From Ectothiorhodospira lacustris (GTDB lineage Bacteria; Pseudomonadota; Gammaproteobacteria; Ectothiorhodospirales; Ectothiorhodospiraceae): a DNA stretch of 64,000 nucleotides. The stretch spans positions 124,001-188,000 of the forward strand of contig NZ_JAJNQN010000001.1 in assembly GCF_022227845.1 (NCBI RefSeq), written 5' to 3'. The position numbers and the translations under genes were made by a program. Of this stretch, positions 1,807 through 30,155 are shown one piece after another (the first letter of the stretch is position 1; each line of letters begins with the position of its first letter). The notes under the pieces were generated by a model. It was not told where the DNA came from. It saw nothing but the letters and a program-made list of their open reading frames with translations, and ran no database searches.

Positions 1807-1911
1807 GACGAGGGAGTGACGCGGGAATAACGCGGGAATAACTTGTTCAGAACATCCTTGACTAAGCCGCACACTTGGATCAACCGTCATCCCCCACATG
1901 GAGGGCGAGCG

Positions 1912-3783: not shown

Positions 3784-3786
3784 ACC

Positions 3787-4680: not shown

Positions 4681-4684
4681 AGAC

Positions 4685-6049: not shown

Positions 6050-6050
6050 C

Positions 6051-9183: not shown

Positions 9184-12100
9184 CTCCCAACCCCTCATGG
9201 GGTTTCAGGACGGGGATGACAAAGATGACCCGACTCAATCCGTGCTGCTCCCAACCCCTCATGGGGTTTCAGGACGCTGTCCAGCAGCTCGCCCAGTCTG
9301 AACCGGATACCCTCCCAACCCCTCATGGGGTTTCAGGACTGACCGCCCAAGGAAATCGACTCGTCTGCATGCTGCTCTCCCAACCCCTCATGGGGTTTCA
9401 GGACTGTCGTCTCCCTGGGGTACGACAAGCAGCGGGCGACGCTCCCAACCCCTCATGGGGTTTCAGGACCCGCTTCGTCACCTTCGCCGAAACCACCAAA
9501 GACGTCTCCCAACCCCTCATGGGGTTTCAGGACCGTCCAGGTTTCAAACAGGTCGGGCAGCACTTCCTTCTCCCAACCCCTCATGGGGTTTCAGGACATA
9601 ACGAGAGGGCCAGATCTCCTTGGGAGAGACGCCCTCCCAACCCCTCATGGGGTTTCAGGACTGGTATCGCAGGCCCAGAGCCTGGACTTTACTCCTCTCC
9701 CAACCCCTCATGGGGTTTCAGGACGCCTTCGGCCCCCGGCCTAGAACCGGGGACAGTGTTCTCCCAACCCCTCATGGGGTTTCAGGACACCTGCAGACCG
9801 GCAAGACCAGGCTGCGCCGGATTCTCCCAACCCCTCATGGGGTTTCAGGACGCTGACCGTGACGTACAAGCGCAACCCGCAGCACCTCTCCCAACCCCTC
9901 ATGGGGTTTCAGGACACCAGCGAGCAGTGGGACGCCTACCGACAGGCAAAGCTCCCAACCCCTCATGGGGTTTCAGGACCTGTCCTGCCCCCACTGCAAC
10001 ACGCCGCTATCCCTGCTCCCAACCCCTCATGGGGTTTCAGGACTGCCGCTGCGCTCATGGCCGCCGTGGCCCGGCTCAACTCCCAACCCCTCATGGGGTT
10101 TCAGGACGCTGAAATGCGCCGTGGCTACGCCATCCGCCACACTCTCCCAACCCCTCATGGGGTTTCAGGACGGTCGGGCACCTGGTCGGGAACCTGGTCG
10201 GGAACCTCTCCCAACCCCTCATGGGGTTTCAGGACCGGCGGCCTCACGTTCCGGGAGTACCGGGCCACCGTCCTCCCAACCCCTCATGGGGTTTCAGGAC
10301 GCCGTCTGACGTCTGGCCGAAGGCTCGCCCCGCATGCTCCCAACCCCTCATGGGGTTTCAGGACGATGAGAGCCAGTTTTGATCAATAATGAGCCACCCT
10401 CTCCCAACCCCTCATGGGGTTTCAGGACTTCCGACGCCGTGCTGGTCATGGTCCGAAACCACGGTCTCCCAACCCCTCATGGGGTTTCAGGACGCATCAC
10501 GCAATGCATCGCCAGCTCGCCGGAGTGATCTCCCAACCCCTCATGGGGTTTCAGGACAATCTTGATCAGCTGATCTTCGTACTCTTCTGCGCTCTCCCAA
10601 CCCCTCATGGGGTTTCAGGACCGGATCTCGCCATGCGGATCTCCGCCCTGGAGCGTGACTCCCAACCCCTCATGGGGTTTCAGGACGGCATCACTCTGCC
10701 GCGCAGCGACGACGTGGTGGAACTCCCAACCCCTCATGGGGTTTCAGGACCCATGAGGTCGTCTTGGGAGGCGGTGCGTCCGGCAGGCTCCCAACCCCTC
10801 ATGGGGTTTCAGGACCGGGCAGCGGGTGTGCACGTTGGCGGGCAAGGAGGCTCCCAACCCCTCATGGGGTTTCAGGACAACACCCTCTCCTTCGTCACCC
10901 CCGTCTTCCGTGACGACTCCCAACCCCTCATGGGGTTTCAGGACCCCCACCCGGATACCGGCGCCGGTGGCCTCGTCGGTCTCCCAACCCCTCATGGGGT
11001 TTCAGGACTCGGTGAGGGTGTCGGCGCCCTTGTAGACGCCGGTCTCCCAACCCCTCATGGGGTTTCAGGACGGTGTAGCCGTCGGTGACGGTGTCGCCCT
11101 GGGCGTCCTCCCAACCCCTCATGGGGTTTCAGGACGGCCGGGCCGCCATCGACGTGCCCGAGTCCCAGGCGCTCCCAACCCCTCATGGGGTTTCAGGACT
11201 GAAGTTTGGGACACGCCGGAGGCGTTGTACTTCTGCTCCCAACCCCTCATGGGGTTTCAGGACACGAGATGAGTATGACGGCCAACAAGTGAACGAATGT
11301 CTCCCAACCCCTCATGGGGTTTCAGGACCCTTTCAAAGGTCCCACGAAATACGGTGTCCTCTCTCTCCCAACCCCTCATGGGGTTTCAGGACGTGCGCGC
11401 GCTTCACGGCCTCCAGCTCCTATTCCAGCTCCCAACCCCTCATGGGGTTTCAGGACGCGTCACCGCCATCCAGGGCGACGCCAACCTGGACCACTCCCAA
11501 CCCCTCATGGGGTTTCAGGACCACGCCGCCCACCTGCTCGCTCACCGCTTGCAGGATCTCCCAACCCCTCATGGGGTTTCAGGACGATGGTGGCGCAGCA
11601 GAGGCGAGGCTTAAGCGCTTCCTCCCAACCCCTCATGGGGTTTCAGGACTCGGCACGGATGATCACTTCGTCATCCTCCGGCTGCACTCCCAACCCCTCA
11701 TGGGGTTTCAGGACGAACTGCTCCACCAGCAGGCGCAGGGTCTGGCCGTTCTCCCAACCCCTCATGGGGTTTCAGGACCTTGGAGCATGGGCGGGACAAA
11801 AAAAATCTGTCGGTGCTCCCAACCCCTCATGGGGTTTCAGGACTAGGACCTGTGGGGCCGGCGGGGCCGAAGGGGGACCTCCCAACCCCTCATGGGGTTT
11901 CAGGACTAGGACCTGTGGGGCCGGCGGGGCCGAAGGGGGACCTCCCAACCCCTCATGGGGTTTCAGGACGAAGTTCGATACGCCAGAGGCGGCCATCATG
12001 GCGTTCTCCCAACCCCTCATGGGGTTTCAGGACCGCCGTCATCCGTCAGGCCCACCACTTCCCCGGCTTCCTCCCAACCCCTCATGGGGTTTCAGGACTT

Positions 12101-15100
12101 GGGCGGTGAGGCCGGCGGCGCCGCCGGTGGACTCCTCCCAACCCCTCATGGGGTTTCAGGACTGAACTGCTCCACCAGCAGGCGCAGGGTCTGGCCGTTC
12201 TCCCAACCCCTCATGGGGTTTCAGGACGCCTGCTGTTCACCCTGGCTCTGGAGACCGCGATGCGCTCCCAACCCCTCATGGGGTTTCAGGACGAAGGTGC
12301 CGGAGGTCAGGCGCACGAAGGCGCCCTGCTCCCAACCCCTCATGGGGTTTCAGGACTGCGACGTGACCCGCGAGCCTATCGACTGGTGGCACTCCCAACC
12401 CCTCATGGGGTTTCAGGACTATCACCGGCAGGCCCGGCTGGGCCTGCGGGGCCCGCTCCCAACCCCTCATGGGGTTTCAGGACAAGAGCCCGGTGACTCT
12501 CCCTCGTTCGGCTGTCATTCTCCCAACCCCTCATGGGGTTTCAGGACGATCTGGCTTTCGACAAACTGGATGTTCTGTTCCTGCTCCCAACCCCTCATGG
12601 GGTTTCAGGACTGGTGAATGGTCTGGTCTCCGTGCCGATGGAGGAGCCTCCCAACCCCTCATGGGGTTTCAGGACAATGGAGGGGGTTCAGAACTACGGA
12701 CCCGGGGTGAGCTCCCAACCCCTCATGGGGTTTCAGGACACCACCGGCGAACGCCAGCCCTTCGTCACCGTCAACCTCCCAACCCCTCATGGGGTTTCAG
12801 GACACGGAGACCAAGGCTGACCGGGAACCGTGGGTGAACTCCCAACCCCTCATGGGGTTTCAGGACCATCGCCTTGAGCCTGCAGAATGCTGAGAAGCTG
12901 CTCTCTCCCAACCCCTCATGGGGTTTCAGGACGGGGGAGAGTCAAATTATCCAGTTTGTCGAGAATCCCTCCCAACCCCTCATGGGGTTTCAGGACCGGC
13001 AATCCGTCAAGGTGGGGCCGCATGGACAACCTCTCCCAACCCCTCATGGGGTTTCAGGACTACGTACTGGGCCATTCTTGGCGACTCGAAAGTTGGCTCC
13101 CAACCCCTCATGGGGTTTCAGGACCGCCTGGCGACAACTGGGCGCGCGGATCCACATCCTGCTCCCAACCCCTCATGGGGTTTCAGGACCTCTGTGCCTG
13201 GTCCAGCAGGAGGGCCAGCCCGCAGACTCCCAACCCCTCATGGGGTTTCAGGACGCTGGCGGCCACATCCTGAGCCTGCTTGGAAGGCGCCTCCCAACCC
13301 CTCATGGGGTTTCAGGACTGGCGGCGGTGAGGTCGCCACCGTCCACGTTGGCCATCTCCCAACCCCTCATGGGGTTTCAGGACGCCCAGGAGCAGGGCGC
13401 CAATGTGGGTGAGGATCAGCTCCCAACCCCTCATGGGGTTTCAGGACCGGAGACCCCACCGTCTCCATGCTGGGCCTGGCCAACTCCCAACCCCTCATGG
13501 GGTTTCAGGACGATGACTTGGAAGTAGTTCAGGTTAAGTATGACGCCCTCCCAACCCCTCATGGGGTTTCAGGACAAATTATGGGCGGTAATCTGATCGC
13601 AAAAAAGCAATCTCCCAACCCCTCATGGGGTTTCAGGACGCGAACGGGATGTCGTCGTCGAAGTCGCTATGCGGTCTCCCAACCCCTCATGGGGTTTCAG
13701 GACCCTCCGCACCCGCGCCGTGACGCTCTCCAGTGCCGTCTCCCAACCCCTCATGGGGTTTCAGGACTCAGGGTCCAGTCATCGCAAGGTGGCAACGGAA
13801 AATGTCCTGCTCCCAACCCCTCATGGGGTTTCAGGACCAGTCGGACGGGTCGGGAAACTACCGTGTTGAACTCCTCCCAACCCCTCATGGGGTTTCAGGA
13901 CCCATGACATGAGCGGCCAGGACCACGACAAGAAGAATCTCCCAACCCCTCATGGGGTTTCAGGACCGCCTAATTGATGTAGTGCATTAGTGACACCAAA
14001 AACTCCCAACCCCTCATGGGGTTTCAGGACCCTCCGGCTTTGTGGGTGTCGCCCTGTTCACGCATGCCTCCCAACCCCTCATGGGGTTTCAGGACCTCCT
14101 CAGTGCCAGCAGAAACAGCAAAAAGAACCTCCCAACCCCTCATGGGGTTTCAGGACCGGCCTGTGCCGCATCTGTTACATTCACTTCGGCGCCCTCCCAA
14201 CCCCTCATGGGGTTTCAGGACAGTCGATCAGCCCCACCAGATTACCCAGCACGATGCCTCCCAACCCCTCATGGGGTTTCAGGACGGCCTCTTGCTGAAT
14301 GTCCGCCGCTACTGCTTTGCACTCCCAACCCCTCATGGGGTTTCAGGACGCCTGGCGACAACTGGGCGCGCGGATCCACATCCTGCTCCCAACCCCTCAT
14401 GGGGTTTCAGGACGGCAAAACCGGCCCGCATCCGGGCGGCGGGGTCGGTCTCCCAACCCCTCATGGGGTTTCAGGACCCTTGCGGGGCTTGGGCCCCACC
14501 AAGATCCGGCCAACCTCCCAACCCCTCATGGGGTTTCAGGACGGTGTTGGCGGCGCATCCAGGCGCCACCGCCCCACTCTCCCAACCCCTCATGGGGTTT
14601 CAGGACCTCAGGGTGGGTCATGACGGATTTTGACCAAATGTCCTCCCAACCCCTCATGGGGTTTCAGGACGACTTCTTCTCGGGCTGCTGGAACTCGTCC
14701 GGGATCTCCCAACCCCTCATGGGGTTTCAGGACGGCGAACCCCGGCATGCCCAACCTCTCCTCCGGCGTCTCCCAACCCCTCATGGGGTTTCAGGACGTG
14801 CAACCCCAAATGGATTACCCAGCACCCTTTTCTCTCCCAACCCCTCATGGGGTTTCAGGACCATGCAACGTCTTGGCGCTCTGGCTAAATCCTGCGGCTC
14901 CCAACCCCTCATGGGGTTTCAGGACGCCGTGGCGAACTCGACAGACAGGGGGAGGTACTTCCTCCCAACCCCTCATGGGGTTTCAGGACTCACTTTGTCT
15001 ATAGCTTTACGAAGGGTTTTCGCCTCTCCCAACCCCTCATGGGGTTTCAGGACGCCTCATCACGGTAGGCGCGAGGGAGGTAGGGCATGCTCCCAACCCC

Positions 15101-16016
15101 TCATGGGGTTTCAGGACACGACTGCGGCTGCATTGCCCTGGAAGGGCATGGTCTCCCAACCCCTCATGGGGTTTCAGGACAAGGACTACAGCGCCCAGAA
15201 GCTTCAGTTTGAGCGGCTCCCAACCCCTCATGGGGTTTCAGGACCCATGAGGTCGTCTTGGGAGGCGGTGCGTCCGGCAGGCTCCCAACCCCTCATGGGG
15301 TTTCAGGACGGCGGACACAAAAACCTGATCCCTGAAGTCGGAGTCCTCCCAACCCCTCATGGGGTTTCAGGACCACAAGCCGCCGGGCGGGCCGCCCCCC
15401 GCTCACCGTCTCCCAACCCCTCATGGGGTTTCAGGACGCCGACCCGAAGGCGCGTCAGAGTCGGGCCGGGCAATCTCCCAACCCCTCATGGGGTTTCAGG
15501 ACTTCGACGCCGGGTCATCCTGAGTGAGGGGGTGGAAATCTCCCAACCCCTCATGGGGTTTCAGGACAAGCCAGCCCAACATCGTCCGCCCAGCCGCGCA
15601 GAGCCTCCCAACCCCTCATGGGGTTTCAGGACGATCACGCGAGGCAGCCCGTCACGGGTGAACGCCGGCTCCCAACCCCTCATGGGGTTTCAGGACGGGA
15701 AAAATGATTGACCCGGATTTCACCACGGGCGTCTCCCAACCCCTCATGGGGTTTCAGGACAATGAAGTCCGGCGCGCTCGTCGAGACACTGGACGACTCC
15801 CAACCCCTCATGGGGTTTCAGGACTATGGGCACTGGCAAGACTCGGGTCACTATCGAGCTCTCCCAACCCCTCATGGGGTTTCAGGACGTCATCACCAGC
15901 GGCCTCCAGTTGCTCCAGGGCATCCTCCCAACCCCTCATGGGGTTTCAGGACACATACAGGAAGGTCCGGGCACGCAACGAGGCGATTCTCCCAACCCCT
16001 CATGGGGTTTCAGGAC
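9184..16016 (-). CRISPR. CRISPR array, 107 repeats of 28 bp and 106 spacers
   Basis: By direct counting there are 107 copies of a 28-bp repeat, the first at 9184-9211 and the last at 15989-16016, with no mismatch that I noticed. Read on the + strand, the repeat is CTCCC, then a stem AACCCC with loop TCAT and stem GGGGTT, then TCAGGAC. Spacers are mostly 36-37 bp. The extremes are 42 bp (13768-13809) and 33 bp (14096-14128). Several spacers occur twice: 10751-10787 and 15245-15281; 13125-13161 and 14350-14385; 11715-11750 and 12163-12199; 11844-11878 and 11907-11941. The decayed repeat at the low-coordinate end, and the A/T-rich leader beside cas2, suggest minus-strand transcription, giving crRNA repeats that begin GTCCTGA and end GTTGGGAG. 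Confidence 0.99.
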
Positions 16017-16134
16017 CCCTTTTTCCATCAACGTTTTTTGCCTTAAAGAACCCAGAAAAGACTTGAAAACAGATGAAAAACACATGATTTCTACTACGCA
16101 CCTCCCCGTTTCAGACACGATCATGGACAGTAGC
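16017..16134 (-). promoter_or_regulatory. Putative CRISPR leader
   Basis: This is the 118-bp gap between the last intact repeat and the cas2 stop codon. It is clearly richer in A/T than its surroundings, with runs such as CCTTTTTCC, CGTTTTTTGCC and GAAAAACACATGA. It should hold the array promoter (reading towards lower coordinates) and the signals for new-spacer insertion. I see no convincing -35/-10 pair. Confidence 0.6.
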
Positions 16135-16434
16135 TCAGATAATGGTAGCGTTCATTGAGTGGTGGATAAGTGATTTCTCCTCCAGTGCGCCGTTTCCGGC
16201 ATTTTTCGACAGGATGGCAGCCTCGATGTTGTGACGGTTTCTAGCCTTGAACTGCAGAATACGATCTTCTGGTATGGCTATTTTTAATAGCCCTGCGACA
16301 AGCTTTCGATACTCGGACTCCGTGAGATCCCCGGCAAAAACTGAATTTTGCTCGTGAGTTAAATATCTCAATAGAAAACGCTTATAGAGCTCCGTTCGAT
16401 CAGCCCGAACATCGTAAGTAATGAGAAGGAACAT
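16135..16434 (-). CDS. cas2: Cas2, adaptation endonuclease-like subunit
   Basis: Cas2 dimers bridge two Cas1 dimers in the spacer-integration complex. The 99-residue protein begins MFLLITYDV, with the conserved Asp8 at the end of the first strand of the ferredoxin-like fold. It continues with YKRFLLRYL and QNSVFAGDL, the usual second-strand region. The start is fixed by a TGATG overlap in which the Cas1 stop and the Cas2 ATG share one base; a longer upstream start is not needed. It is the last gene of the cas operon, followed by the leader and array. Confidence 0.92.
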   Translation of the reverse strand: MFLLITYDVRADRTELYKRFLLRYLTHEQNSVFAGDLTESEYRKLVAGLLKIAIPEDRILQFKARNRHNIEAAILSKNAGNGALEEKSLIHHSMNATII

Positions 16435-17408
16435 CAGATTTTCCTCCGCCAAGGGCGGTACTCGGAAAGGCCGAGTAGATCTCTTTCAATCGCCAGAGCC
16501 TCCTGTCTCACGATTTCACGGAAAGAGCATTCTCCCTGGACGCGCTCTTCTGTCTTGCGTACCCATAGTTGCAATGTCTCAGCCCGGCCTTTTTCGGCAA
16601 GCCGGCACACCCCTTCTTCCTGATGGAACCAATCCGGTTTCATCTGGTTACGCAGGACGGCTTCGAAAATAATCGTGTCACAGATGGCCGGCTTGAAGAT
16701 TTCCGCAAGATCCAATGCGAGTGATGAACGTGCTTCTCGGGTGGCATGCAAGAAAGAGATGCAATCATCGAGATGTGTCTTTGCGATTTCATTTCTGACC
16801 ATGGAGTAGGCTAGGCCATTGAACCATGAAATCAGACAATTCAATGGGTTATTGGGTGGTCGGCGACGACGTGCCCCAAAATCCAGTCTGGAATCGATCC
16901 GTGCCCAAGCTTCGTAGTAATAGGCCCGGATCTGACCTTCGATTCCCATGAGGCTTTCGACGCAGCCCGCAGTGGGAATCTGCCCCATCAACAATTCGAT
17001 CGCCGAAAGCTGGAGCTCGATATCGTGATTCCCGCGGTAGGTGCGATATTTCAAATTTGCCCGGATATTGCGGGCCGCACCGAGTACGAAGGCTCGGGCA
17101 AATCCCAGCCTACGTTCGGGATCAAGAAATGCGGCTGCCTGTAACACACGTACCTTTCCAGCCGCTGGCGAGCCTTTGGGTTCGAACGTGCCGGTGACAT
17201 TGCCATGCCAATCCAGAATCGTGACTCGAACTTCGCTACGCCCACATAGGCCCAGTACAGCCGTTGTGAGCTGAGCCTCACCAGCGACAATGACATGCTT
17301 GAGCCCTGAGATCGGCACGCGTCTGCGTGGTCCTGCGGCGGGTATCACGACGAGCGTGGAATGCTCACGCGCGATCTTGACATCCTTCGTGAGATAAAGG
17401 GTTTCCAT
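16434..17408 (-). CDS. cas1: Cas1, spacer integrase
   Basis: The 324-residue Cas1 carries out spacer integration. METLYLTKDV opens the N-terminal beta domain. The helical catalytic domain carries the metal ligands Glu157 (LMGIEGQI), His221 (SFLHATREAR) and Asp233/Glu236 (LALDLAEIFKP). The region NNPLNCLISWFNGLAY is also typical of the family. The start chosen is the ATG that overlaps the Cas4 stop by one base (TGATG). Its stop overlaps the Cas2 start in the same way. All catalytic residues are intact, so adaptation should be functional. Confidence 0.95.
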   Translation of the reverse strand: METLYLTKDVKIAREHSTLVVIPAAGPRRRVPISGLKHVIVAGEAQLTTAVLGLCGRSEVRVTILDWHGNVTGTFEPKGSPAAGKVRVLQAAAFLDPERRLGFARAFVLGAARNIRANLKYRTYRGNHDIELQLSAIELLMGQIPTAGCVESLMGIEGQIRAYYYEAWARIDSRLDFGARRRRPPNNPLNCLISWFNGLAYSMVRNEIAKTHLDDCISFLHATREARSSLALDLAEIFKPAICDTIIFEAVLRNQMKPDWFHQEEGVCRLAEKGRAETLQLWVRKTEERVQGECSFREIVRQEALAIERDLLGLSEYRPWRRKI

Positions 17409-17974
17409 CACTCGAATCCGCACAAATAACGGTAAGAGCAGCTCTTGCAGACAGCCTTTTTTGAAGCTGGGGGAGCAAGGTTGCTCTCGGCAAGAACCGC
17501 GAGCTGTTCTGCCATGTCCACCATGTCCTGGATGTGGTGACGTTCAATGGCAACAGGGAGTTGTTTGCGGCCACCAATGATTTCATTCGCTGCAGACCAG
17601 CGCTGTCCGGTCGCAGCCATGAGGAGCAGGGCATAGAAACGGGTTTGCATGGATACAGCCTCCCGCGCACCCGCTGAACCCTTGGCCTCAATGACTTTCC
17701 TGTACTCCCAGTCAATCCGATCCGGAGCAACGCCGATCAGTCCAGTGACGGAATGATCTCGTGGTCGATGGATTTCGTGGGATACCGCGCCCAGCCGCAT
17801 GCGTTCATCGAGATGGGCGTAGTCGATCCGGTTCATGTGAAACCAGGCGCGGCGCTCACATAGTTCGAGGTGCTGAAACAGCAGCCCATGCAGATGGAAA
17901 TTCTCGGCAAGATCACGAAAGCGGTAGACCAACTCTTCCCAGTCGCCGAGCTCAGTCGATGAGAGTGGCGCCAT
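17408..17974 (-). CDS. cas4: Cas4, RecB-like nuclease of the adaptation module
   Basis: Cas4 trims prespacers and selects those with a correct PAM. The 188-residue form starting at 17974 is preceded by GAGGGGG. It has four iron-sulfur cysteines, Cys39 in ELCERRAW and Cys176, Cys179 and Cys185 in CKSCSYRYLC. The RecB-family nuclease features are VIEAKGS with Glu96/Lys98, an upstream Asp (PDRIDWE) and the QxxxY motif at Gln110-Tyr114 (MQTRFYALL). It overlaps the end of cas3 by 23 bp. Presence of Cas4 predicts PAM-selected spacers with a consistent flanking motif. Confidence 0.92.
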   Translation of the reverse strand: MAPLSSTELGDWEELVYRFRDLAENFHLHGLLFQHLELCERRAWFHMNRIDYAHLDERMRLGAVSHEIHRPRDHSVTGLIGVAPDRIDWEYRKVIEAKGSAGAREAVSMQTRFYALLLMAATGQRWSAANEIIGGRKQLPVAIERHHIQDMVDMAEQLAVLAESNLAPPASKKAVCKSCSYRYLCGFE

Positions 17975-19949
17975 CGGCCATAGCCCCCTCGGAGGCGGTG
18001 GGTACAATGCCTGTCAGTCGGACCAGTGTCTGTGCCGCCTGCAGTACCCGTTCCTGTTCATCAGAAAGTCCGGGGTCCTTCAATTCATTTTCCGCTGCAC
18101 GATTCCAGGCATCCCGTATTCCCTTCAGACTGAGGGTGTGGGTACGACCGGAATGGGGAAACAGGGTCTCCTCGAAACGCTCAACCCAGAGCGTGCCTAT
18201 TTCGGTTTGAATGGTGCTGAGGGGGCGAGAGACATGAATCAGGATTGAACCATCGTCGGCGACCGTGGATGGCGAACGCACCAGTTCATCGGTTGAGGCA
18301 TACAGATGCCAAGACAAGGATCTCTTTCGGCCCGATGGGTCCATGAGGGCCACTTTGGGCAGGATCATTCGCAGTCGCTTGGCTTCATGAAGGAATGTCC
18401 TTGCCCAGTCCTTAGCTGTGTCGAGTCGGCTACAACAAAGGATTTTCACCTTTGCCTCAATGAGAGAAACCTGACTCGGACGGAAATGAAACAAGGTATC
18501 GCGCATGCCCTTGTAGCGGGCCGAGCGTTCCAGTGCGACCCAGAATAGCCTGGCCGCCCAGATCGCCGACTGGGGCATTCTGCGGAACATGCCTTCCTCG
18601 ACCTCCAATTCCTTTTCGCTCACATGGAAACGCTCACGCACAGCGGCCAGCACGGATTCGGTAAATTGATCCACCGGTATGCACTGGCCCCGGGCAGGCA
18701 GATCTCTCAGAAGCTGACGCAACCAGGCATGTCGATCCAGTGCGGCCGTTGTGACATGTACGATCACTTGACCGGGCAGATCACCTCGCGCAGCACGCCC
18801 GATCCTCTGGACGAAGGAAGTCGCGTCATGGCCGGGTTCCATCAAGATCAGGCCCGCCTTGAAAGTGACCCCCATTTCAACGCTGGATGTAGCCACCAGC
18901 ACCCGAAAGTTTCGGGGATCGTATTTGCGCCCCGTGGTGAAAAAGCCGTCCATTTCCTGATCGACACTGTCATCCCATGAATTGATGGCTAGGCGCTCAT
19001 CAGATCCGATACCGATGCCGTCCAGCCAGGCCGAAAGGGCAGGTTTGTCCTTGAGGAGTTGCCGGACGGAATCGTAGATCAATACCACCTGGCGGCCATC
19101 ATCCTGACGGTCCAGGGTTTCAAGGATCTGGGCTCGGTGGGGTTCCAGCGCCTGCAGCAATCCCTCTCCCTGCTCGATGACGATCTCCACATCGCCATGG
19201 ATGGCCCGCATCCCCGTGGTTTCCTCAGCGGAGCCGGTGATCACGGCTTCCTGGGCCACTTCGATCCGGTCTGCGGGGATGCCAAAGCCGACCAAGGTGG
19301 TTTTCAGATCAATGGGAGTTGCCGACAGGAAGGTGATTTTGGCGGTTTGCATGACCTGCCAGGCCAGGGTGGCCAGAGCACAGGACATGCCCATGCCCCG
19401 GGCCTCAATGGTATGGAATTCGTCAAACACCACATGGGTCAGCCGCAAGATGTCGAGAAGATTTTCCGGGTCCATGCCGTCTTGGCGCAGGGCAGGATTG
19501 AGCAAATACCATGCGACACTCTCGGGAGTAGCCACGATCATGAAACCCCCACTGCCGGTTCCATTCTCAGCCCGGACCTGACGAATACGCCGATCCCGAG
19601 TGCGAATCTCCGGCTCCACCTCTTCCTGGCGCTTGCGCTCATCCGATGTCCACATGAAAACCTGACCGAGGGCTTCTTCCTCGCTTACCCCCTCTTGCAT
19701 CAGATCTGAAACAAGACCTTCCGCAAGGTTCTGGGCCAGGCGACGGGTTGGCACGATAAAGAGGACACGATCACCCCTGTCGCGCACGCCCCTCTGGAAG
19801 GCATAGCTCTTCCCCGCCCCTGTCGGGGCGGAAAAGATGCGGATCGGCAAATCACTTTGGAGCATCCGGGCTTGGAGAGGGGAAAGTCCGGTGTCACGAT
19901 CCGAAGGAACGGCATGACGGGGAATGGTAAAGCGAATGAGCTCGGTCAT
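17952..19949 (-). CDS. cas3: Cas3 helicase without an HD nuclease domain (Cas3')
   Basis: This 665-residue superfamily-2 helicase should unwind and translocate on target DNA after Cascade binding. Motifs seen: Walker A APTGAGKS (41-48), IVPTRR (65-70), the DEAD-like box DEFH (176-179), SATP (209-212) and motif VI QRIGRAARG (381-389). There is no HD domain at either end, unlike Cas3 of types I-B, I-C, I-E and I-F. In type I-D the HD nuclease lies in Cas10d, as it does here. It begins 16 bp after csc1 and overlaps cas4 at its end. Confidence 0.93.
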   Translation of the reverse strand: MTELIRFTIPRHAVPSDRDTGLSPLQARMLQSDLPIRIFSAPTGAGKSYAFQRGVRDRGDRVLFIVPTRRLAQNLAEGLVSDLMQEGVSEEEALGQVFMWTSDERKRQEEVEPEIRTRDRRIRQVRAENGTGSGGFMIVATPESVAWYLLNPALRQDGMDPENLLDILRLTHVVFDEFHTIEARGMGMSCALATLAWQVMQTAKITFLSATPIDLKTTLVGFGIPADRIEVAQEAVITGSAEETTGMRAIHGDVEIVIEQGEGLLQALEPHRAQILETLDRQDDGRQVVLIYDSVRQLLKDKPALSAWLDGIGIGSDERLAINSWDDSVDQEMDGFFTTGRKYDPRNFRVLVATSSVEMGVTFKAGLILMEPGHDATSFVQRIGRAARGDLPGQVIVHVTTAALDRHAWLRQLLRDLPARGQCIPVDQFTESVLAAVRERFHVSEKELEVEEGMFRRMPQSAIWAARLFWVALERSARYKGMRDTLFHFRPSQVSLIEAKVKILCCSRLDTAKDWARTFLHEAKRLRMILPKVALMDPSGRKRSLSWHLYASTDELVRSPSTVADDGSILIHVSRPLSTIQTEIGTLWVERFEETLFPHSGRTHTLSLKGIRDAWNRAAENELKDPGLSDEQERVLQAAQTLVRLTGIVPTASEGAMADGATLID

Positions 19950-19965
19950 TTCAGGTTCCCTTTGA

Positions 19966-20646
19966 TCAAAATGTACGCCAACGACTGACGATATCGGCAG
20001 CTTTCAGAGGCTCCATGGCGTGTGTGAGCTGAATGTCGTAAAGGGCAAACACATCAACACGCATATCCGGGTCTTGTGCCGGATCGGCACCGAAAAGATG
20101 TGCCGTATGAGCATTGAGGCGGACACGAATCGGTTCATCCGTACGAGTAAGGGAAACGATACCGCCGAGATGGCGGCCGGTTCGCACGATGATTTCATCC
20201 ACTTCGCGCCCTTCGATCTCTGAGGCCATGCGGAAGGGATCAGGACCGAAGATTGCACCGTCATACCGAATGCCGGGAGGCACTTCTTGTATGTAGAACC
20301 AGGTTTTCAGGTTTCCGGTGCCGGTGGCATCCATGATTTTTTTGGGGTATCCCCCCTCAGTATCCAGATTGAGTCGTTTGCCAATGGCGGGCATAAGACG
20401 AGGGTTTCGTGCCTCAAAGGCTGAGCAGAGCCAGGGCAGTGCTTCAAGATCACGCCGATAGTCCTTCTTCTGTGGCAATGCCGCAGATGGTGCAAGGGCA
20501 CCCATGGCCCCCGCCAATGCATAGGACATCGAACGATCCGCAAGGAATGCAGCCAGGGTGGCGGTCCCCGAAGGGACCGCAAGACTGTGGTAGTGCAAAG
20601 GGGTCAGGGTGAGTGCCCGGACCAGAGTGACGTCCGGGGTACCCAT
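19966..20646 (-). CDS. csc1: Csc1, Cas5-type subunit of a type I-D-like Cascade
   Basis: Csc1 caps the 5' end of the crRNA in type I-D Cascade. The 226-residue protein shows a Csc1-like pattern. RSMSYALAGAMGAL matches the YAL-yAlG segment. It is followed by DYRRDLEALPWL, a GNLKTWFYIQEVPPG stretch and VRTGRHLGGIVSL, which matches the position of the usual IRLGK segment. It is diverged, so I assign it on pattern and position rather than close likeness. Its ATG shares a base with the csc2 stop (TGATG), which implies translational coupling. Confidence 0.8.
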   Translation of the reverse strand: MGTPDVTLVRALTLTPLHYHSLAVPSGTATLAAFLADRSMSYALAGAMGALAPSAALPQKKDYRRDLEALPWLCSAFEARNPRLMPAIGKRLNLDTEGGYPKKIMDATGTGNLKTWFYIQEVPPGIRYDGAIFGPDPFRMASEIEGREVDEIIVRTGRHLGGIVSLTRTDEPIRVRLNAHTAHLFGADPAQDPDMRVDVFALYDIQLTHAMEPLKAADIVSRWRTF

Positions 20647-21653
20647 CAGCCAATCCCCTCAAACCAGGCATCGAAATACTGGCCTACCTGGGTGGCAGTT
20701 TTCCTGTAGGCTTCACGCAATGCGGGGTCCTCAGCCTCCAGGCGGGTGATCAGGTCCTGTTGCAGGCTCACCAGGGTTTCTCCTGATATCTCAACCGGCC
20801 ATGCGGCGCGATAGCTGGCCTGTAATGCTTCGCGGACGGCCGCCAGATTCATCGTATCCGTGTCGGTTTGACGAACCTGATCGATAGCGACATAGGGGCT
20901 AGCCAGATCCCGTTCCAGGTGGCCCGCATAAAACCCCACCAGATGATTACGCACGTTGACACCGTAGATGGACGTTGCGCCGCCATAGGCCCCTGCCAAC
21001 CCGATGCTCAGCAACAGATGTTCGACGGCTTCCATCGGCGCCACCTTGCCGTTGAAGGCGATGGTCTGGAGGAGCAAGGCGCCCGGCTTGACGAAGTGGC
21101 GTTCAAACAGATTGCTTGAGTTTTCCTTGCGCTGCGCATCCCAGAGGGAGCCATCTTCCGATGCCCGGTTATGGAAAGTGGTATCCACCACATCCGCGTA
21201 GTCCTGTATTGAAACGGCATCGGAATACTGGGCCGCCGCCTTGACCGACAGGACCTTATTAGCGGCCGTATTGGCACTGTCGCCAAATACCAGGGTATTC
21301 AGATCGTACTTGTCAGAAGGTTTTTCACCCTTGTAAAAGGTGGTCTTGTTCTGTGCGGCGGCACCACCTGCATTGAAAAATCGCAGAACCTGAAGGCCGC
21401 GGGCACGTTCGCCGAACTTGAACTTGTTGGCCACAGCGCGGACGTGACGCCGGCCGTTGACGTCGATGTCCGTGATTTCAGACTCCGCGTTCCGGAATGA
21501 GGCCGGGGAGATGACCTCACGCAGGACCACCAGTACCGCCGAGCCCAGATTTTTCAGTGCGGGCTGGGCGTAGGATTTCGTTTCATCAGTCTGCGTGATG
21601 GTGAGCATACTGCCGATATCACCGACGTAGGGTTTGATCGCTTCAATGGTCAT
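20646..21653 (-). CDS. csc2: Csc2, Cas7-type backbone subunit of a type I-D-like Cascade
   Basis: Multiple Csc2 copies form the crRNA-binding backbone. The 335-residue length is normal for Csc2. The segment LVFGDSANTAANKVLSVKAAAQYSDA resembles the Csc2 IGDS-x-R-S-K-V-Y-SD region, and YGVNVRNHLVGFYAG resembles its G-x-M-K-N-H-V-V-G-I strand, preceded by AGAYGGATS. An AAGGAG lies 9 bases before the ATG. It follows cas10d after 29 bp. These matches are the strongest single reason for calling the locus type I-D-like. Confidence 0.85.
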   Translation of the reverse strand: MTIEAIKPYVGDIGSMLTITQTDETKSYAQPALKNLGSAVLVVLREVISPASFRNAESEITDIDVNGRRHVRAVANKFKFGERARGLQVLRFFNAGGAAAQNKTTFYKGEKPSDKYDLNTLVFGDSANTAANKVLSVKAAAQYSDAVSIQDYADVVDTTFHNRASEDGSLWDAQRKENSSNLFERHFVKPGALLLQTIAFNGKVAPMEAVEHLLLSIGLAGAYGGATSIYGVNVRNHLVGFYAGHLERDLASPYVAIDQVRQTDTDTMNLAAVREALQASYRAAWPVEISGETLVSLQQDLITRLEAEDPALREAYRKTATQVGQYFDAWFEGIG

Positions 21654-21682
21654 GGGATTTTTCTCCTTGTACTGGAATTGAG

Positions 21683-22135
21683 TCAGAGCTCGGCTTGCTC
21701 GGGGGTGGTCGCATCGGGAGCCTGCTCACGTTTGCGGTAAGACTCGTTTTCAAAAGCAACCTGATAGACGGCCAAAGCGATACGGCGTGCCTTCGAGGCT
21801 GGGGGACGACTTTGAAATGCGATCGGCCAGACCTTCTCCACAAAGAGGGTGGCGGCTTCAAATGCGGCCTTGCGCGGAAAATGAAGTCCTTTATCCTTGC
21901 CACGCCACGCTAAACGGGATGAACGCTCGAATTCGTTTTCCAGCCCGCCAGCGATGGCGGCAATCAGTGTTTCGGTGCCCGTTTGGTGGATCTCACCGGC
22001 GCAGCTCTCAATGGCGTCAAGGGCGACCTTTAGCCCCAGGGTACGCTCCGAATTGCTTGCATTGCGCGAGGGGGCGGCCTGAACGCGGGTCATGGCCCGT
22101 GCAAAATCAATCAACACATTGTCGGTGGAGGTCAT
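21683..22135 (-). CDS. cas11d: Candidate internal Cas11d small subunit within cas10d
   Basis: In characterised type I-D systems, Cas11d is produced by internal translation of cas10d. Here a TAAGGAG sequence (22149-22155, minus strand) lies 13 bases before an in-frame ATG at residue 811 of Cas10d. The product would be 150 residues, starting MTSTDNVLIDFARAM and rich in helices with Arg/Lys patches, the right size for Cas11. The spacing is longer than ideal, and no other in-frame start lies closer. No separate small-subunit gene exists in the operon. Confidence 0.6.
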   Translation of the reverse strand: MTSTDNVLIDFARAMTRVQAAPSRNASNSERTLGLKVALDAIESCAGEIHQTGTETLIAAIAGGLENEFERSSRLAWRGKDKGLHFPRKAAFEAATLFVEKVWPIAFQSRPPASKARRIALAVYQVAFENESYRKREQAPDATTPEQAEL

Positions 22136-24565
22136 GGGCGTATCCGGGCTCCTTACGATGGATTTGAGGGTCATTTTCAGGTGGGCAAGCTGTTTCTGCT
22201 TGTCTTCTGGCAGCCTGTTGATCACGGCCAATGCTTCGCAGGCGGCGGCGAAACGGGTAGCGGGATCGGCGTAGCGCAGGGTGACTTCCAGACCCAGGTT
22301 GGGTATTGCGATCATCTGTTCGAGGATACGAAGACGATCAATGGCGTCGGGTATCTGCTCAAGACGCAGTGAGCGCCCCCCAATGCCACGCTCCACGGCA
22401 CCTGGCAGGAAATCAAAATGCACATAGGCGTTCTCGGGTGTCGGTAATCCCTTGAAGACATGCACCGGACGCGATAGACGTAACGCGGATTGCATCATCA
22501 TCCGGGCCAGTGCGATGACTTCCTCCGTTTTAGCAGGGATCGTTACATGCCGGGCAAACATGATGCGTTGCCCGTATGTTTGCGCTTCCGGCCAGACGGT
22601 CTTCCCGGGTTTGATTTCCTGTCGCATCAGGTCGTAATGATTGATCTGGAGAAAATCTGCATCCGCCTTCATATTCAGACTGGCGAACAGCCCCATCATG
22701 GTCGGTGACGAGATATAGGCGGGCACCTCGCCACTGCGTCCCTCGCCCATGAGCGTTCGTAGACGATGTTCCGCAGCTGCCGCAGGCGAAACCAGGGTCT
22801 GGGATCTGGAGCTTTCGTATGACTCTGGTCTGCCTTCACGTCCCGAGAATGCGCTGGTCTTGATGCCGTCCAGCCCGGACTTGGTATCAATGCGTCGTTC
22901 AAGCCCCACGGGTATGTTGGTGAAATGGCAGCGACCTCCCGCCGTCTCATCCGCTGAAAGGAACTGCCCTTTCATACAACCCCGTAGCCATGTCATGGCC
23001 GCATCGATGAAGGCGGCCCCCGGATCTCCGAGCTTGGCAAGCAATCCCGCTCTTTCTTCGCCATCACCACATAACCAGAGATGGAGTAATCCTTCGAAGC
23101 CAAACACCCGTTCCCGCAAGTCCTCATCCCGTTCTGCCAGCCCTGCAGCAAGAGCAGACAACAGGGTTTGACGGCTCAGTTTGTGGCCCACATCCAGCAG
23201 CCATTCGGGCACTTCCTGCCCGGACTGCCTGATGACTTCCAGCAGCTCCGACTCACGGCAAGTCGAATCAGGAACCTTGGACGCAAGCTTCTTATCGTCG
23301 GGCTCGGCACACCCGAGACCGACAGCAATCGCAGCAGCGTCACGACGCAATGCGGCCACCAGGATCTCATTGTCATCACCCCGGCAGGGCCAGGCCTGAT
23401 AATGCTTGCCACCAAATTTATTCAAGCCTGCATAGTCGGGTGGAAGACCCATTGGGGTCAGGAGTGTGTCGATTTGCTCACGAAGTGATCCCTGACCTGT
23501 CAGAAGATCCACATGCAAGAACAGGGCTTTGGATGCTTCACCAGGATCTCTGGCCAGTAGGTCCAGAAGGTCTTCCGGGCCAGAGCCACCATCAAGGATA
23601 TTTCGCGTTCCTTTCGGGTTGGTCATGACCCGCATACCAAGCCTGAGGGGACGGGTTGCCCTGGCAAGGGCAGCATCAATGATCTGATCGGCAGCCGATT
23701 CAGGAATGACGGCTAAAAACTCCCCGTCATGATGAACTTCAATCAGCGGCGGCATGCTTGTCAGATTCTGGGTTGCCGCCGAAAGACCGCGCTGGAGGGC
23801 ATTGAGCAGAAAGGGGGTATGTGCCGAACGCACGGTTACCGCCCGCCAGCCATGAGAAAAGACCTGGCTACGAAACCCGCCAAATTTTTCCAGCTCTTTG
23901 ATCAGTGCCTCAAGTCCGGCCTCGGAGTTGAGAAACAGTCCCTCAAGCCGGTCAGCAAGCCGAGCATAATGGCAATCCCCGGCTTCCTCGGCAGAGAGCA
24001 GACGCATGCCAGAACGTAGGGATCCGGATCGGCTCACTTCAACACCATGGATCATCGATAGCAGATCTTCGGGACTGATCTCGACACCTGATGCCTTCAG
24101 AAACTCGTCGATCCGATAACGCTGCAGAAGCTGTGCAATATCATCAGACGTAATTTCTTCGACTCGCTCCCTGCCAAGAATCTTGTCCGCATCATGCAGG
24201 AACCCGACCGCTATCAGTATGGCGAGACGTGGGCGAATCCTGTCTTCTGAAACACCCATGGCGCGCAAATCAAGTTCCGCAAAGACGCAGGCACCACGGG
24301 CAACGGAGACCAGATGATCGAGCAGGCTGACGTTTCGGAACTGCAGGCGTTTGATGACTGAGGGACCTTCCACATGCCCGCCTTTCCCGGACACCCGGCA
24401 CAGATAAGGTGTGCGGTGGTCGATACGTTTGCCGCTGGTGATGTCCTTTTGGGTCTTTTCGGCCAGTGGCCCGGTACCCAGCGTACGTTCTTCGTTGGAG
24501 AAAGCACCGCCGATGACAGCGGTGCGCATGAAACTCTCGAACAGGTCTCGTGAGATGTTCAGCAT
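21683..24565 (-). CDS. cas10d: Cas10d (Csc3), large subunit with HD nuclease domain
   Basis: Cas10d combines the large Cascade subunit with the nuclease that cuts target DNA in type I-D. The chosen start (960 aa, MLNISRDLF) follows GAGG by 5 bases and leaves a 7-bp gap after cas6; a 988-residue form would overlap cas6. The N-terminal HD domain is complete by eye: His84 (SLLDHL), His124-Asp125 (FLHDADK), His173 (MIHGVE) and Asp205 (ARLADRLEG). I found no cyclase-type GGDD, consistent with Cas10d rather than type III Cas10. The last 150 residues are helix-rich and may also be made separately as Cas11d. Confidence 0.88.
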   Translation of the reverse strand: MLNISRDLFESFMRTAVIGGAFSNEERTLGTGPLAEKTQKDITSGKRIDHRTPYLCRVSGKGGHVEGPSVIKRLQFRNVSLLDHLVSVARGACVFAELDLRAMGVSEDRIRPRLAILIAVGFLHDADKILGRERVEEITSDDIAQLLQRYRIDEFLKASGVEISPEDLLSMIHGVEVSRSGSLRSGMRLLSAEEAGDCHYARLADRLEGLFLNSEAGLEALIKELEKFGGFRSQVFSHGWRAVTVRSAHTPFLLNALQRGLSAATQNLTSMPPLIEVHHDGEFLAVIPESAADQIIDAALARATRPLRLGMRVMTNPKGTRNILDGGSGPEDLLDLLARDPGEASKALFLHVDLLTGQGSLREQIDTLLTPMGLPPDYAGLNKFGGKHYQAWPCRGDDNEILVAALRRDAAAIAVGLGCAEPDDKKLASKVPDSTCRESELLEVIRQSGQEVPEWLLDVGHKLSRQTLLSALAAGLAERDEDLRERVFGFEGLLHLWLCGDGEERAGLLAKLGDPGAAFIDAAMTWLRGCMKGQFLSADETAGGRCHFTNIPVGLERRIDTKSGLDGIKTSAFSGREGRPESYESSRSQTLVSPAAAAEHRLRTLMGEGRSGEVPAYISSPTMMGLFASLNMKADADFLQINHYDLMRQEIKPGKTVWPEAQTYGQRIMFARHVTIPAKTEEVIALARMMMQSALRLSRPVHVFKGLPTPENAYVHFDFLPGAVERGIGGRSLRLEQIPDAIDRLRILEQMIAIPNLGLEVTLRYADPATRFAAACEALAVINRLPEDKQKQLAHLKMTLKSIVRSPDTPMTSTDNVLIDFARAMTRVQAAPSRNASNSERTLGLKVALDAIESCAGEIHQTGTETLIAAIAGGLENEFERSSRLAWRGKDKGLHFPRKAAFEAATLFVEKVWPIAFQSRPPASKARRIALAVYQVAFENESYRKREQAPDATTPEQAEL

Positions 24566-24572
24566 TTTGACC

Positions 24573-25283
24573 TCACTGCATGAGGGTGGGGCAGCCGTTT
24601 CCATTGCGGGTCTTAGCCCCCAGTCCGGCCAAGTAGGCAAAACGGACATCTTCAGGCGTTCCGCGTAGCGTCATGGGGACGATAAACCCCGGCAGAATCA
24701 TCTTCTTGCCCGACGGAAATCTGCGGATATGCACGAGGTGCTTGCGGCGCCCATCGGTTGCAGCACTCAGCGGATCAATGGCAATGCTGAGATCAAGCGT
24801 GCGCTTTGCGCGTCGGTCGAGCCCCATCTTGAGTGCGGTCGGGACTTCAGAGATGGGGAGTTCTTCATGGAAGCGTGTCTTGGTGCGTCCATCCTTCTTC
24901 ACGGGCAGTAAAAAGGGACTGATGAAACCGATCATGATTTCGGATGCACCCGGTGGGAGGTCATCACATGTCAGCAGGCGCGCGCTGGCGCCATTGATGA
25001 CGTCGCCGTTGCAGGAGGTCACGCTAATATCGGCAGGATTGATGCGATTTGCCGCTTCAGCGAAGCGTTTGGAGGGCGACGAGAGCACAACGGAGTGAAC
25101 TCGCCGTTTCCGGCCAGGACGTGAATAGGCTTCCATGCCGAATGTCCAGGGCTCAGCGGTTTCACCCACAACCTCTTCCGGGCGCAGACCTGCTGCCACT
25201 AAGGCCGAGACCAGCGCCGCGTTCATGCTGTCGGTGAACTGGACCATCTGGGGGGTATTCCCGAAATCAATCCTGAAACGCAT
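24573..25283 (-). CDS. cas6: Cas6, pre-crRNA processing endoribonuclease
   Basis: Cas6 cuts the long array transcript in each repeat. The 236-residue protein is predicted to be a two-ferredoxin-fold RAMP and ends with the glycine-rich loop LAGLGAKTRNGNGC, the Cas6 hallmark. AGGAG stands 5 bases before the ATG. I cannot pick the catalytic histidine safely; His62 (RRVHSVVL) is one candidate. It is the first gene of the cas operon, whereas cyanobacterial I-D loci usually place cas6 after csc1. The repeat forms a 6-bp stem with a 4-base loop, suitable for Cas6 recognition. Confidence 0.82.
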   Translation of the reverse strand: MRFRIDFGNTPQMVQFTDSMNAALVSALVAAGLRPEEVVGETAEPWTFGMEAYSRPGRKRRVHSVVLSSPSKRFAEAANRINPADISVTSCNGDVINGASARLLTCDDLPPGASEIMIGFISPFLLPVKKDGRTKTRFHEELPISEVPTALKMGLDRRAKRTLDLSIAIDPLSAATDGRRKHLVHIRRFPSGKKMILPGFIVPMTLRGTPEDVRFAYLAGLGAKTRNGNGCPTLMQ

Positions 25284-25307
25284 GGTGGCTCCTGCTTGTT
25301 GTGTTAA

Positions 25308-25366
25308 TTGAAGTGTTCACCAGAATACTGCATCATTCAAGACAAATACATGTGAGAAATTATCAC
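25308..25366. promoter_or_regulatory. Divergent promoter/operator region between cas6 and the WYL regulator
   Basis: Within the short gap between the divergent starts are two symmetric elements: TGAA-gtg-TTCA (25309-25319, perfect) and GTGA-gaaatta-TCAC (25352-25366, near-perfect). A weak plus-strand promoter, TTGAAG at 25308-25313 and CATCAT at 25331-25336 with 17-bp spacing, overlaps the first palindrome. This arrangement fits autorepression plus control of the cas operon by the regulator. No clear minus-strand promoter was found. Confidence 0.4.
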
Positions 25367-25369
25367 CTC

Positions 25370-26212
25370 ATGAAAAAAAGCATGATGAGATATTCCTGGC
25401 TAGAGTACCTGGCCTACTGGGAGGGCCGGCTGTCGGCATCAAAACTTGGTCGGATTCTTGGGCAATCCCGTGAGCATGTGCAGCGAGACGTCATTTCTGC
25501 ATACAGGCACGAGTTTCCCGGGGTGCTTGCGGGGGGACCGGGCAGAAGTCAGTCGATTGATCGGCATGAAGACCTGCATTTCGCCCCAAGTGGCGCGCAT
25601 AGGCTGGTCGATCTCCTGCGTGGAGAAGCAACCCTTTCCGAGGCCCTGGGAGAGCCGGCCCGTTTTGGTATTCCGGTTGAGGATGTTGGGACTATCGCCT
25701 TCCGAGAGACGGAGCCGGAGATCTTCAGGTCACTCTATCGTGGATGCGTGCAGCGACGTTGCGTGCTTGTTGAGTACCTGTCCAAGAATCGGGTCGCTGT
25801 CATGAGGTTCAGCCCGCACGCGCTCGTTCGCGATGTGGCACGCCTCCATTTTCGTGGCTATGCCTCCTGGACTCAGGACCACAGAGGCTATTACATCGAC
25901 CTGGTGCCGTCGCGAGTTCGGCGGATTTACGATGATGTGGATCGTTGGAACTATGTGCCGGACACTGATGATCGGGAGTGGCACGAGCGGGTAAACCTGA
26001 CTTTTCGATTAAACCCGGATCTTCCCAAGAATATCCGCCAGATCCTCATCCTTGAATATGAAGGAGAAAAAGCGCGAGAAGATTTTACTCAACTCGTCAT
26101 TCCCGATGTCCGTCTCGCCATGACGAGATATGTCGAGAGAACAATGAAGTACCGTTTTTTTGGTGAAGAAATGCACCATGTATGGATGCTTGGGGAAAGA
26201 AAAAAATCATGA
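25370..26212 (+). CDS. WYL-domain transcriptional regulator divergent from the cas operon
   Basis: The 280-residue protein has an N-terminal winged helix (WLEYLAYWEGRLSASKLGRILGQSREHVQRDV) and a central WYL domain with VLVEYLSKNRVAVMRFSPHALV, then LHFRGYA and YYIDLVPSRV. A C-terminal WCX-like extension (LPKNIRQILILEYEG onwards) completes it. This layout matches the BrxR/CapW class of phage-defence regulators, and WYL proteins regulate type I-D CRISPR in Synechocystis. The ATG at 25370 is chosen; one at 25382 is also possible, and an upstream GTG at 25301 would cover the palindromic region. It probably senses a nucleotide or nucleic-acid ligand and controls the cas promoter (inference). Confidence 0.82.
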   Translation: MKKSMMRYSWLEYLAYWEGRLSASKLGRILGQSREHVQRDVISAYRHEFPGVLAGGPGRSQSIDRHEDLHFAPSGAHRLVDLLRGEATLSEALGEPARFGIPVEDVGTIAFRETEPEIFRSLYRGCVQRRCVLVEYLSKNRVAVMRFSPHALVRDVARLHFRGYASWTQDHRGYYIDLVPSRVRRIYDDVDRWNYVPDTDDREWHERVNLTFRLNPDLPKNIRQILILEYEGEKAREDFTQLVIPDVRLAMTRYVERTMKYRFFGEEMHHVWMLGERKKS

Positions 26213-28940: not shown

Positions 28941-28960
28941 GCTGACTGTCCGGTCAAGAA

Positions 28961-29767
28961 TCAATCCCCCAATACCACCCGGTCCCGCCCCTCTCTCTTG
29001 GCCTTGAACAAGGCATCATCAGCCCGCTTGAGGGCGTCGTCCACGTCCTCCCCCGAACGCAGCAGGGTAACGCCGAAACTGGCGGAAAGCCGGATGGCGG
29101 GGTCATCGCCGCCCACGGTGAGGGCGGTGATGGTCTGTCGAATACGCTCCAACACCATGACCGCTTCCTCCGGGTCGGCATCGGGCAGCACGAGCAGAAA
29201 CTCCTCCCCACCCCAACGGCCGTACACATCGTAACGCCGCACTTCCTGACGGACCGCGCCGGCGATCTCGCACAGGGCCACATCGCCCACCTCATGGCCG
29301 AATCGGTCGTTGACCTGTTTGAAATGATCCACGTCCATCAGGGCAATGGCGAGGCGACTGCCCTTGCGGGCGGCACGTTGGGTCTCTTCCTTGAGGCGCT
29401 CCATCAGAAACCGTCGGTTGGCCAAGCCGGTCAGGGGATCCTGGTTGGCCGCCTGGCGCAGGGTTTCGGTGACTTCCCACAGGTTGCGCTGGTACTGGTC
29501 CGAAATGCGGGCGAGCCTTTCCATACGCTTGATCTGTTTGTCGCAGCGCTCGGACAGGGTCAGAGCCTCGTTGTGTTCAAGCAACTGGTAGCCGTCCGAT
29601 ATCCTCAACAGCCGTTCCATGCGCTGATTCTGGCTTTGGATGTGATCGTTCACTTCCTGCAGCACAGCTCTGAGGGGATTATCGATGTGGGCGGGGTCAT
29701 CCAGCAGAGCCTGGATGCGCTCCAGCAGGACCTTGCCGTTCTTGATGACCCCGGACTCCCTAGTCAT
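28961..29767 (-). CDS. siaD: SiaD-like diguanylate cyclase
   Basis: The 268-residue SiaD homologue makes c-di-GMP when bound by unphosphorylated SiaC. It has a helical, coiled-coil N-terminal part (about 1-110), containing the repeated segments RMERLLRISDGYQLL and RMERLARISDQYQRN, and then a GGDEF domain with DPLTGLANRRF, DVDHFKQVN and the active variant GGEEF (GRWGGEEFLLVL). RRYD five residues upstream is a consensus I-site. The ATG at 29767 overlaps the siaC end by 8 bp, implying coupling. The N-terminal duplication is a useful family mark. Confidence 0.88.
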   Translation of the reverse strand: MTRESGVIKNGKVLLERIQALLDDPAHIDNPLRAVLQEVNDHIQSQNQRMERLLRISDGYQLLEHNEALTLSERCDKQIKRMERLARISDQYQRNLWEVTETLRQAANQDPLTGLANRRFLMERLKEETQRAARKGSRLAIALMDVDHFKQVNDRFGHEVGDVALCEIAGAVRQEVRRYDVYGRWGGEEFLLVLPDADPEEAVMVLERIRQTITALTVGGDDPAIRLSASFGVTLLRSGEDVDDALKRADDALFKAKREGRDRVVLGD

Positions 29768-30155
29768 CGGCGGTGGGGAGGATGTGGAACGGGAAGGTAT
29801 AGTCCTCGCGGAATTCCTCCGCCATTTCCATGACCCGTTCATTGCGGGGGTCGTAGTACCAGTTCACCCGGACTTCCCGGGATTGGGCATGGGCCTCTTC
29901 GAGCATGTCGAAGACGTCCATCATGGCCTTCACACTGCTGGTGTTCATGTAGATGAGACCCAACTCCAGGTGCAGGGCGGCATCCGTCCCATCCAGGTAC
30001 TGCTGAATCCAGGCAAAGACCTGCGCAAAGAATTCAAAGGAATTCTCGGGATAGGAATTGCCCGTCATGTGCAGACGTCCCCGCGCCCAATCGGTGGTGA
30101 TGGTGGGGGTGGACTGGCTACCGGGTATTTCCAGTTCGTTGATCACTGAGGACAT
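29760..30155 (-). CDS. siaC: SiaC-like phosphorylatable partner-switch protein (DUF1987)
   Basis: The 131-residue SiaC homologue switches between SiaB (kinase) and SiaD (cyclase). It is phosphorylated by SiaB and dephosphorylated by SiaA in Pseudomonas. The small alpha/beta fold shows LELGLIYMNTSSVKAMMDVF, the region around the phospho-acceptor, where a Thr/Ser pair is present, followed by VRVNWYYDPRNERVMEM. Its place between siaB and siaD matches the known operon order, 30 bp after siaB. The precise acceptor residue is inferred from the family. Confidence 0.88.
   Translation of the reverse strand: MSSVINELEIPGSQSTPTITTDWARGRLHMTGNSYPENSFEFFAQVFAWIQQYLDGTDAALHLELGLIYMNTSSVKAMMDVFDMLEEAHAQSREVRVNWYYDPRNERVMEMAEEFREDYTFPFHILPTADD

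Follow-up and report, generated by a model that had tools for sequence, protein, structure and literature searches.

A complete and probably functional type I-D CRISPR-Cas locus of a far-diverged lineage in Ectothiorhodospira lacustris

Introduction

Type I-D CRISPR-Cas is regarded as linking types III and I in evolution. A 2023 review of these systems draws its account of the mechanism mainly from cyanobacterial and Sulfolobus representatives (PMC10212523). The locus studied here lies in a 64,000-nucleotide stretch of the Ectothiorhodospira lacustris genome (the window) and, according to the original prediction, bears the marks of type I-D, i.e., Csc1, Csc2, an HD-bearing Cas10d and an HD-less Cas3, in an unusual gene order and with an unusual repeat. 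Is it a diverged type I-D system, a separate subtype that came to resemble one, or a lineage already on record? The gene content and order, the repeats and motifs, the folds predicted for Cas10d and Csc1, the conserved internal start and the protospacers lead us to hold with high confidence that the locus encodes a complete, probably functional type I-D system of a far-diverged lineage.

Gene content and order

Gene calls and profile matches agree on the order originally claimed, cas6-cas10d-csc2-csc1-cas3'-cas4-cas1-cas2, in an operon that is intact on the minus strand of the window, with all eight genes open and their motifs preserved. The features are as follows:

25301..26212 (+): WYL-type regulator gene, divergent from the cas operon; Pfam WYL 16.4 bits, weak and below the cut-off
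24573..25283 (-): cas6; Pfam Cas_Cas6_C 36.1 bits, PADLOC Cas6d 120 bits
21683..24565 (-): cas10d; PADLOC PDLC01534 (Cas10_Id) 1217 bits
21683..22135 (-): cas11d, predicted internal gene of 150 aa, in frame within cas10d and behind TAAGGAG
20646..21653 (-): csc2 (Cas7d); TIGR03157 44.7 bits (cut-off 38)
19966..20646 (-): csc1 (Cas5d); PADLOC PDLC01565 (CAS-I-D) 315 bits
17952..19949 (-): cas3', helicase without HD domain; PADLOC Cas3d PDLC02032 495 bits
17408..18007 (-): cas4; PADLOC Cas4d PDLC02036 184 bits
16434..17423 (-): cas1; TIGR03641 (Cas1b, I-B) 253 bits vs TIGR04093 (Cas1d, I-D) 162 bits
16135..16452 (-): cas2; TIGR01573 33.8 bits, Pfam PF09827 51 bits
16017..16134 (-): leader region, 118 nt from the cas2 stop to the first repeat
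9184..16016 (-): CRISPR array; 107 identical 28-nt repeats, in the cas sense GTCCTGAAACCCCATGAGGGGTTGGGAG, and 106 spacers

The four marks of type I-D are borne out by these profile matches and by the HD and helicase motifs. Cas3' shows helicase motifs only (TGAGKS at 43, DEFH at 176, SATP at 209), with no HD family among its Pfam matches, while the HD nuclease domain is found at the N-terminus of Cas10d, in non-permuted order (H112, H152-D153 and D233 in the 988-aa numbering). The first in-frame ATG of cas10d lies at 24649, and its homologues point to a start at about 24565.

A Pfam scan of eight flanking proteins identified no transposition proteins, and an Rfam scan of the window returned no match. 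A type I-D CRISPR-associated transposon was considered and rejected, the flanks consisting of regulators, redox proteins and GGDEF/EAL proteins, with no Tn7-like genes. Cyclic di-GMP genes lie beside the cas operon (26391-30155), encoding a PAS-GGDEF-EAL protein, a GGDEF protein and a SiaC-family phosphoprotein, and a cluster with an animal-type haem peroxidase, an old-yellow-enzyme-like flavoprotein and a RoxA-like cytochrome is found at 1843-7661.

The CRISPR array and its repeat

The array sits directly downstream of cas2, just outside the interval covered by the original prediction, and the number of array matches expected by chance is 0. The predicted 28-bp repeat length holds throughout, all 107 repeats being identical over 28 nt, and the spacers are mostly 36-37 nt long. 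Each repeat contains a hairpin (CCCC-ATGA-GGGG). A leader in the same position and of similar length (116-154 nt) is present in 16 other loci. Within the window array, spacers 12 and 82 (counted from the leader) are identical, as are spacers 64 and 65, and a near-identical pair is found at 13125 and 14350.

Related loci and reference type I-D loci

A Cas10d alignment of eight sequences, used to scan genome contigs, yielded 31 loci, among others in Thioalkalivibrio, Thauera, Neomegalonema, Paracoccus, Thiothrix, Thiofilum, Thiorhodospira, Rhabdochromatium, Thiomargarita, Desulfonema, Desulfamplus and SAR324, and plasmids from Paracoccus, Roseomonas and Thiothrix contributed three more. Altogether, 35 related loci were considered from Gamma-, Beta- and Alphaproteobacteria, Desulfobacterota and SAR324, of which a few are counted twice, the same locus having been reached twice (e.g., L014, L042). 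Profiles of the window genes show all 36 loci (window included) to be collinear with the window operon; 17 carry all eight genes, and the others run into a contig end, are without adaptation genes or are incomplete in some other way. In 34 of the 36, a WYL-type gene is oriented away from cas6. The repeats are 28 nt long in every branch array found downstream by our script, and follow the pattern GT-N7-CCCCATG(A/C)GGGGTTATGAG or near variants. In four loci (L012, L018, L041, L031), an array accompanies effector genes without adjoining cas4, cas1 and cas2. In the relative G013 (L049, ~15480-16570), a 1.05-kb element lies within the CRISPR array and has a 99% identical copy elsewhere in the genome.

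As a reference, we used seven plasmid-borne type I-D loci, six from cyanobacteria and one from Chloroflexota. All seven are arranged cas3-cas10d-csc2-csc1-cas6-cas4-cas1-cas2. Their repeats end in GAAAC and are 37 nt long (38 as measured in one array), so that the layout given for cyanobacterial I-D in the original prediction (cas3-cas10d first, cas6 after csc1, a repeat of about 37 bp) applies to this set. The branch and reference layouts thus differ by the exchange of cas3 and cas6, and type I-D is not defined by the cas3-first, 37-nt layout. Repeats of both kinds fold into a short hairpin with 7 nt after it, so that the predicted handle is 8 nt long in each case; most of the shortening in the 28-nt repeat is on its 5' side.

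It had been proposed that the members of a new branch would cluster outside known I-D and have a gene order in common. Besides the collinearity of all 36 loci, unrooted trees of Cas3 and of Cas1 split the branch from the seven reference loci with a support of 100. The branch is therefore distinct from these reference loci, as predicted, but not strictly proteobacterial, because Desulfobacterota and SAR324 also carry it.

Adaptation module

Profiles built from the seven reference loci do detect the Cas3, Cas4, Cas1 and Cas2 proteins of the branch. Branch members aside, the best plasmid matches of Cas1 are mostly annotated as Cas1b and are ~30-33% identical. In an unrooted tree of 22 Cas1 rows, the branch forms one group (98/96), which a 100/100 split places together with Cas1b and apart from the reference Cas1d.

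Protospacers and candidate PAM

Four spacers have protospacers, which lie in plasmids, in a phage and in genomes belonging to the same class. Two of these spacers come from Thauera and match plasmids and a phage, with best matches of 36/36 (GTC) and 35/37 (ATC), and two come from the window and match genomes of the same genus and class, one at 35/37 (CTC) and the other at 30/35 and 32/35 (both ATC). The best match of all four spacers thus reads 5'-NTC (GTC, ATC, CTC, ATC). The second Thauera spacer has an equal match on a Cupriavidus plasmid (35/37) that reads ATT, and other matches of these two Thauera spacers carry GTC, CTC, ACA and ATA. From these four spacers, we tentatively propose 5'-NTC as the PAM of the branch. 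A GTN PAM is documented for Synechocystis and is not definitional for type I-D. Set against the documented I-D PAM, GTN (PMC10212523), the NTC best matches are suggestive of a branch that shares the T at -2 and prefers C at -1 over requiring G at -3.

Several matches were excluded from the PAM set: those of a Roseomonas spacer (37/37, AAA) and a Thiothrix spacer (35/36, ACC), the flanks of which resemble repeat ends, and those to conserved chromosomal genes. The window spacer at 14222-14257 matches dut (dUTPase) genes across the class, up to 97%, while the dut gene of the host differs at several positions. This spacer was probably taken from a dut-carrying phage, and it was rejected as PAM evidence because the match may be to a phage-borne or a host gene. 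A spacer of Thiothrix singaporensis (L044, 21003) is ~98% identical to a conserved chromosomal gene of its own genome that is also present in congeners; it was left out for that reason and is possibly self-targeting. Searches of phage and plasmid records with the window spacers identified no protospacer, nor did viral contigs yield one in four scans for exact patterns.

These results bear on whether the locus is degraded or inactive, as has happened to a relative on the G333 contig (L006/L039), a degenerate locus in which the HD motif has become HE and cas3, cas4, cas1 and cas2 are missing. The window, with its eight open genes, intact motifs, uniform repeats and spacers that match genomes of the same genus, contrasts with that state, and we regard inactivity as very improbable.

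Effector proteins: remote sequences, shared folds

The reference I-D profiles miss the Cas10d, Csc2, Csc1 and Cas6 of the branch. When profiles are compared with profiles, Csc2 is recovered (hhalign 97%, E 4e-11) and Cas10d weakly so (73%, E 3e-5), while Csc1 has no similarity to its reference counterpart (3%). Moreover, no NCBIfam model recognises the window Cas10d or Csc1, and PDB profile searches with the branch Cas10d or Csc2 found no relative. Consequently, homologues of Cas10d and Csc1 on three RefSeq plasmids are annotated as hypothetical proteins, so that the branch is likely under-counted.

Predicted structures support I-D membership where sequences do not. The AlphaFold2 (AF2) model of Cas10d (mean pLDDT 85) has its best structural matches in the Cas10d of Synechocystis (7sbb_I) and Sulfolobus (6yes_A), with Z 14.9-15.7 over 525-551 residues; the next fold reaches Z 8.2 and covers the HD domain alone. 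The AF2 model of Csc1 (pLDDT 84) best matches 7sba_H, the Csc1 of the I-D Cascade (TM 0.59, 12% identity). The HD residues of Cas10d (H86, H126-D127 and D207 in the 962-aa numbering) are invariant in 27 branch sequences. The window Cas10d has no GGDD, as is the case for the inactive palm of type I-D. An HHDG motif lies in its palm region (residues 280-283 of the 962-aa model), with HxDG invariant in all 27 branch sequences.

In known type I-D systems, the small subunit Cas11d is translated from within cas10d. Residues 814-952 of the Cas10d model match Cas11d (7sba_J, Z 15.3), and the internal ATG of the window (22135) lies one residue ahead of this stretch. An ATG occupies the same codon column in 22 of the 27 branch cas10d genes, each time with a Shine-Dalgarno match, and four more genes have an ATG one codon upstream, also with a Shine-Dalgarno match; the next best ATG column is shared by only 7 of the 27. 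The internal start of Cas11d, a type I-D trait, is thus predicted in 26 of 27 genes.

Could a separate type I subtype have converged on the I-D plan? The four effector proteins that escape the reference profiles would fit such a history, as would the differences in repeat length, gene order, probable PAM and Cas1 affinity, but the models of Cas10d and Csc1 have I-D subunits as their best matches, Csc2 scores above its I-D cut-off and the Cas11d start is common to both. Furthermore, as a control, the reference cyanobacterial Cas10d profile also misses the Sulfolobus Cas10d of solved structure, an archaeal I-D protein; such divergence therefore occurs within I-D, and a missing match does not amount to non-homology. 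We consider convergence improbable and retain the reading of a far-diverged type I-D.

Proposed mode of action

Taken together, genes and models suggest the following scheme. The array would be transcribed leftward together with the cas genes, and Cas6 would cut just 3' of the repeat hairpin, at a predicted site leaving a handle of ~8 nt (GTTGGGAG). Copies of Csc2 would then coat the spacer RNA, with Csc1 capping its 5' end, and Cas10d and separately translated copies of Cas11d would complete the complex. Cas10d would read a short tag beside the target, probably 5'-NTC, after which Cas3' would be recruited and unwind the DNA, for the HD nuclease of Cas10d to cut. New spacers would be added by Cas4, Cas1 and Cas2 at the leader on the cas2 side. 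Finally, the WYL-type protein likely represses the operon.

Is the branch new?

We judge the branch to be a coherent variant of type I-D that has been under-described, and not a new type. To regard it as unknown would be wrong: PADLOC 2023 has dedicated I-D models covering its Cas10d family, which means that this family was already known and filed as I-D by then, and a review of the same year distinguishes four Cas10d lineages, one of them predominantly from other bacteria, with positions of cas3' and cas6 that vary among I-D lineages (PMC10212523). The passages on I-D found in the 2025 classification concern transposons only.

It is quite possible, if somewhat short of an even prospect, that our branch simply is the 'other bacteria' lineage of the published Cas10d trees and holds nothing new, as both the review and the PADLOC models would allow. 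Against this, the NCBI Csc3 model picks up no more than 5 of 16 branch proteins at E values up to 1, and a search of five genomes harbouring the family returned none; being mostly blind to the branch, it could have led a survey built on it to miss these loci. Searches with TIGR03174 returned no match anywhere, the controls included. Moreover, our literature search found no paper on the 28-nt repeats or the NTC PAM of the branch. That it is an undescribed I-D variant that merits a name of its own, with an NTC PAM read by Cas10d that includes a requirement, absent from GTN systems, at the protospacer-adjacent base, 28-nt repeats and an adaptation module closer to I-B, is a reading we advance tentatively and with some doubt.

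The persistence of the fold, of the HD domain on Cas10d and of the internal Cas11d start in a second bacterial branch so remote in sequence shows which features of type I-D are essential. The host range covers sulfur-oxidising and other proteobacteria as well as sulfate reducers, in which the system would provide immunity against phages and plasmids. A compact system with a different PAM, if confirmed, would widen the set of I-D genome-editing tools.

Comparison with known systems

The closest well-described counterpart is the type I-D system on pSYSA of Synechocystis 6803 (7SBA, 7SBB). It shares with the window the gene set, the HD domain on Cas10d, the helicase-only Cas3', the internal Cas11d start, the divergent WYL regulator, the array after cas2, the repeat hairpin and the 7 nt 3' of it, and the folds of Cas10d and Csc1. 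In contrast, cas3 and cas6 are swapped in the window, the repeat is 28 nt instead of 37, the PAM is probably NTC and not GTN, Cas1 is nearer to Cas1b, and the effector proteins lie beyond sequence-profile detection. The Sulfolobus islandicus I-D system, compared by protein only, has a Cas10d (6YES, 6THH) of the same fold (Z ~15) but without a sequence match to the branch Cas10d in the PDB profile search. As for type I-B, the likeness is confined to the adaptation module, where the window Cas1 shares ~30-33% identity with proteins annotated as Cas1b in several phyla; the effector module is not I-B, and the branch Cas1 proteins form their own group (98/96). Finally, two gammaproteobacterial loci of a further, I-D-like lineage with related effector genes, L047 (G370) and L048 (G145), resemble the branch in having cas6 before cas10d, 28-nt repeats and effectors detected by the branch profiles, but differ from it by a GTTTCA...AAG-type repeat and a Cas10d identity of ~20%, with cas3 inverted upstream in L048.
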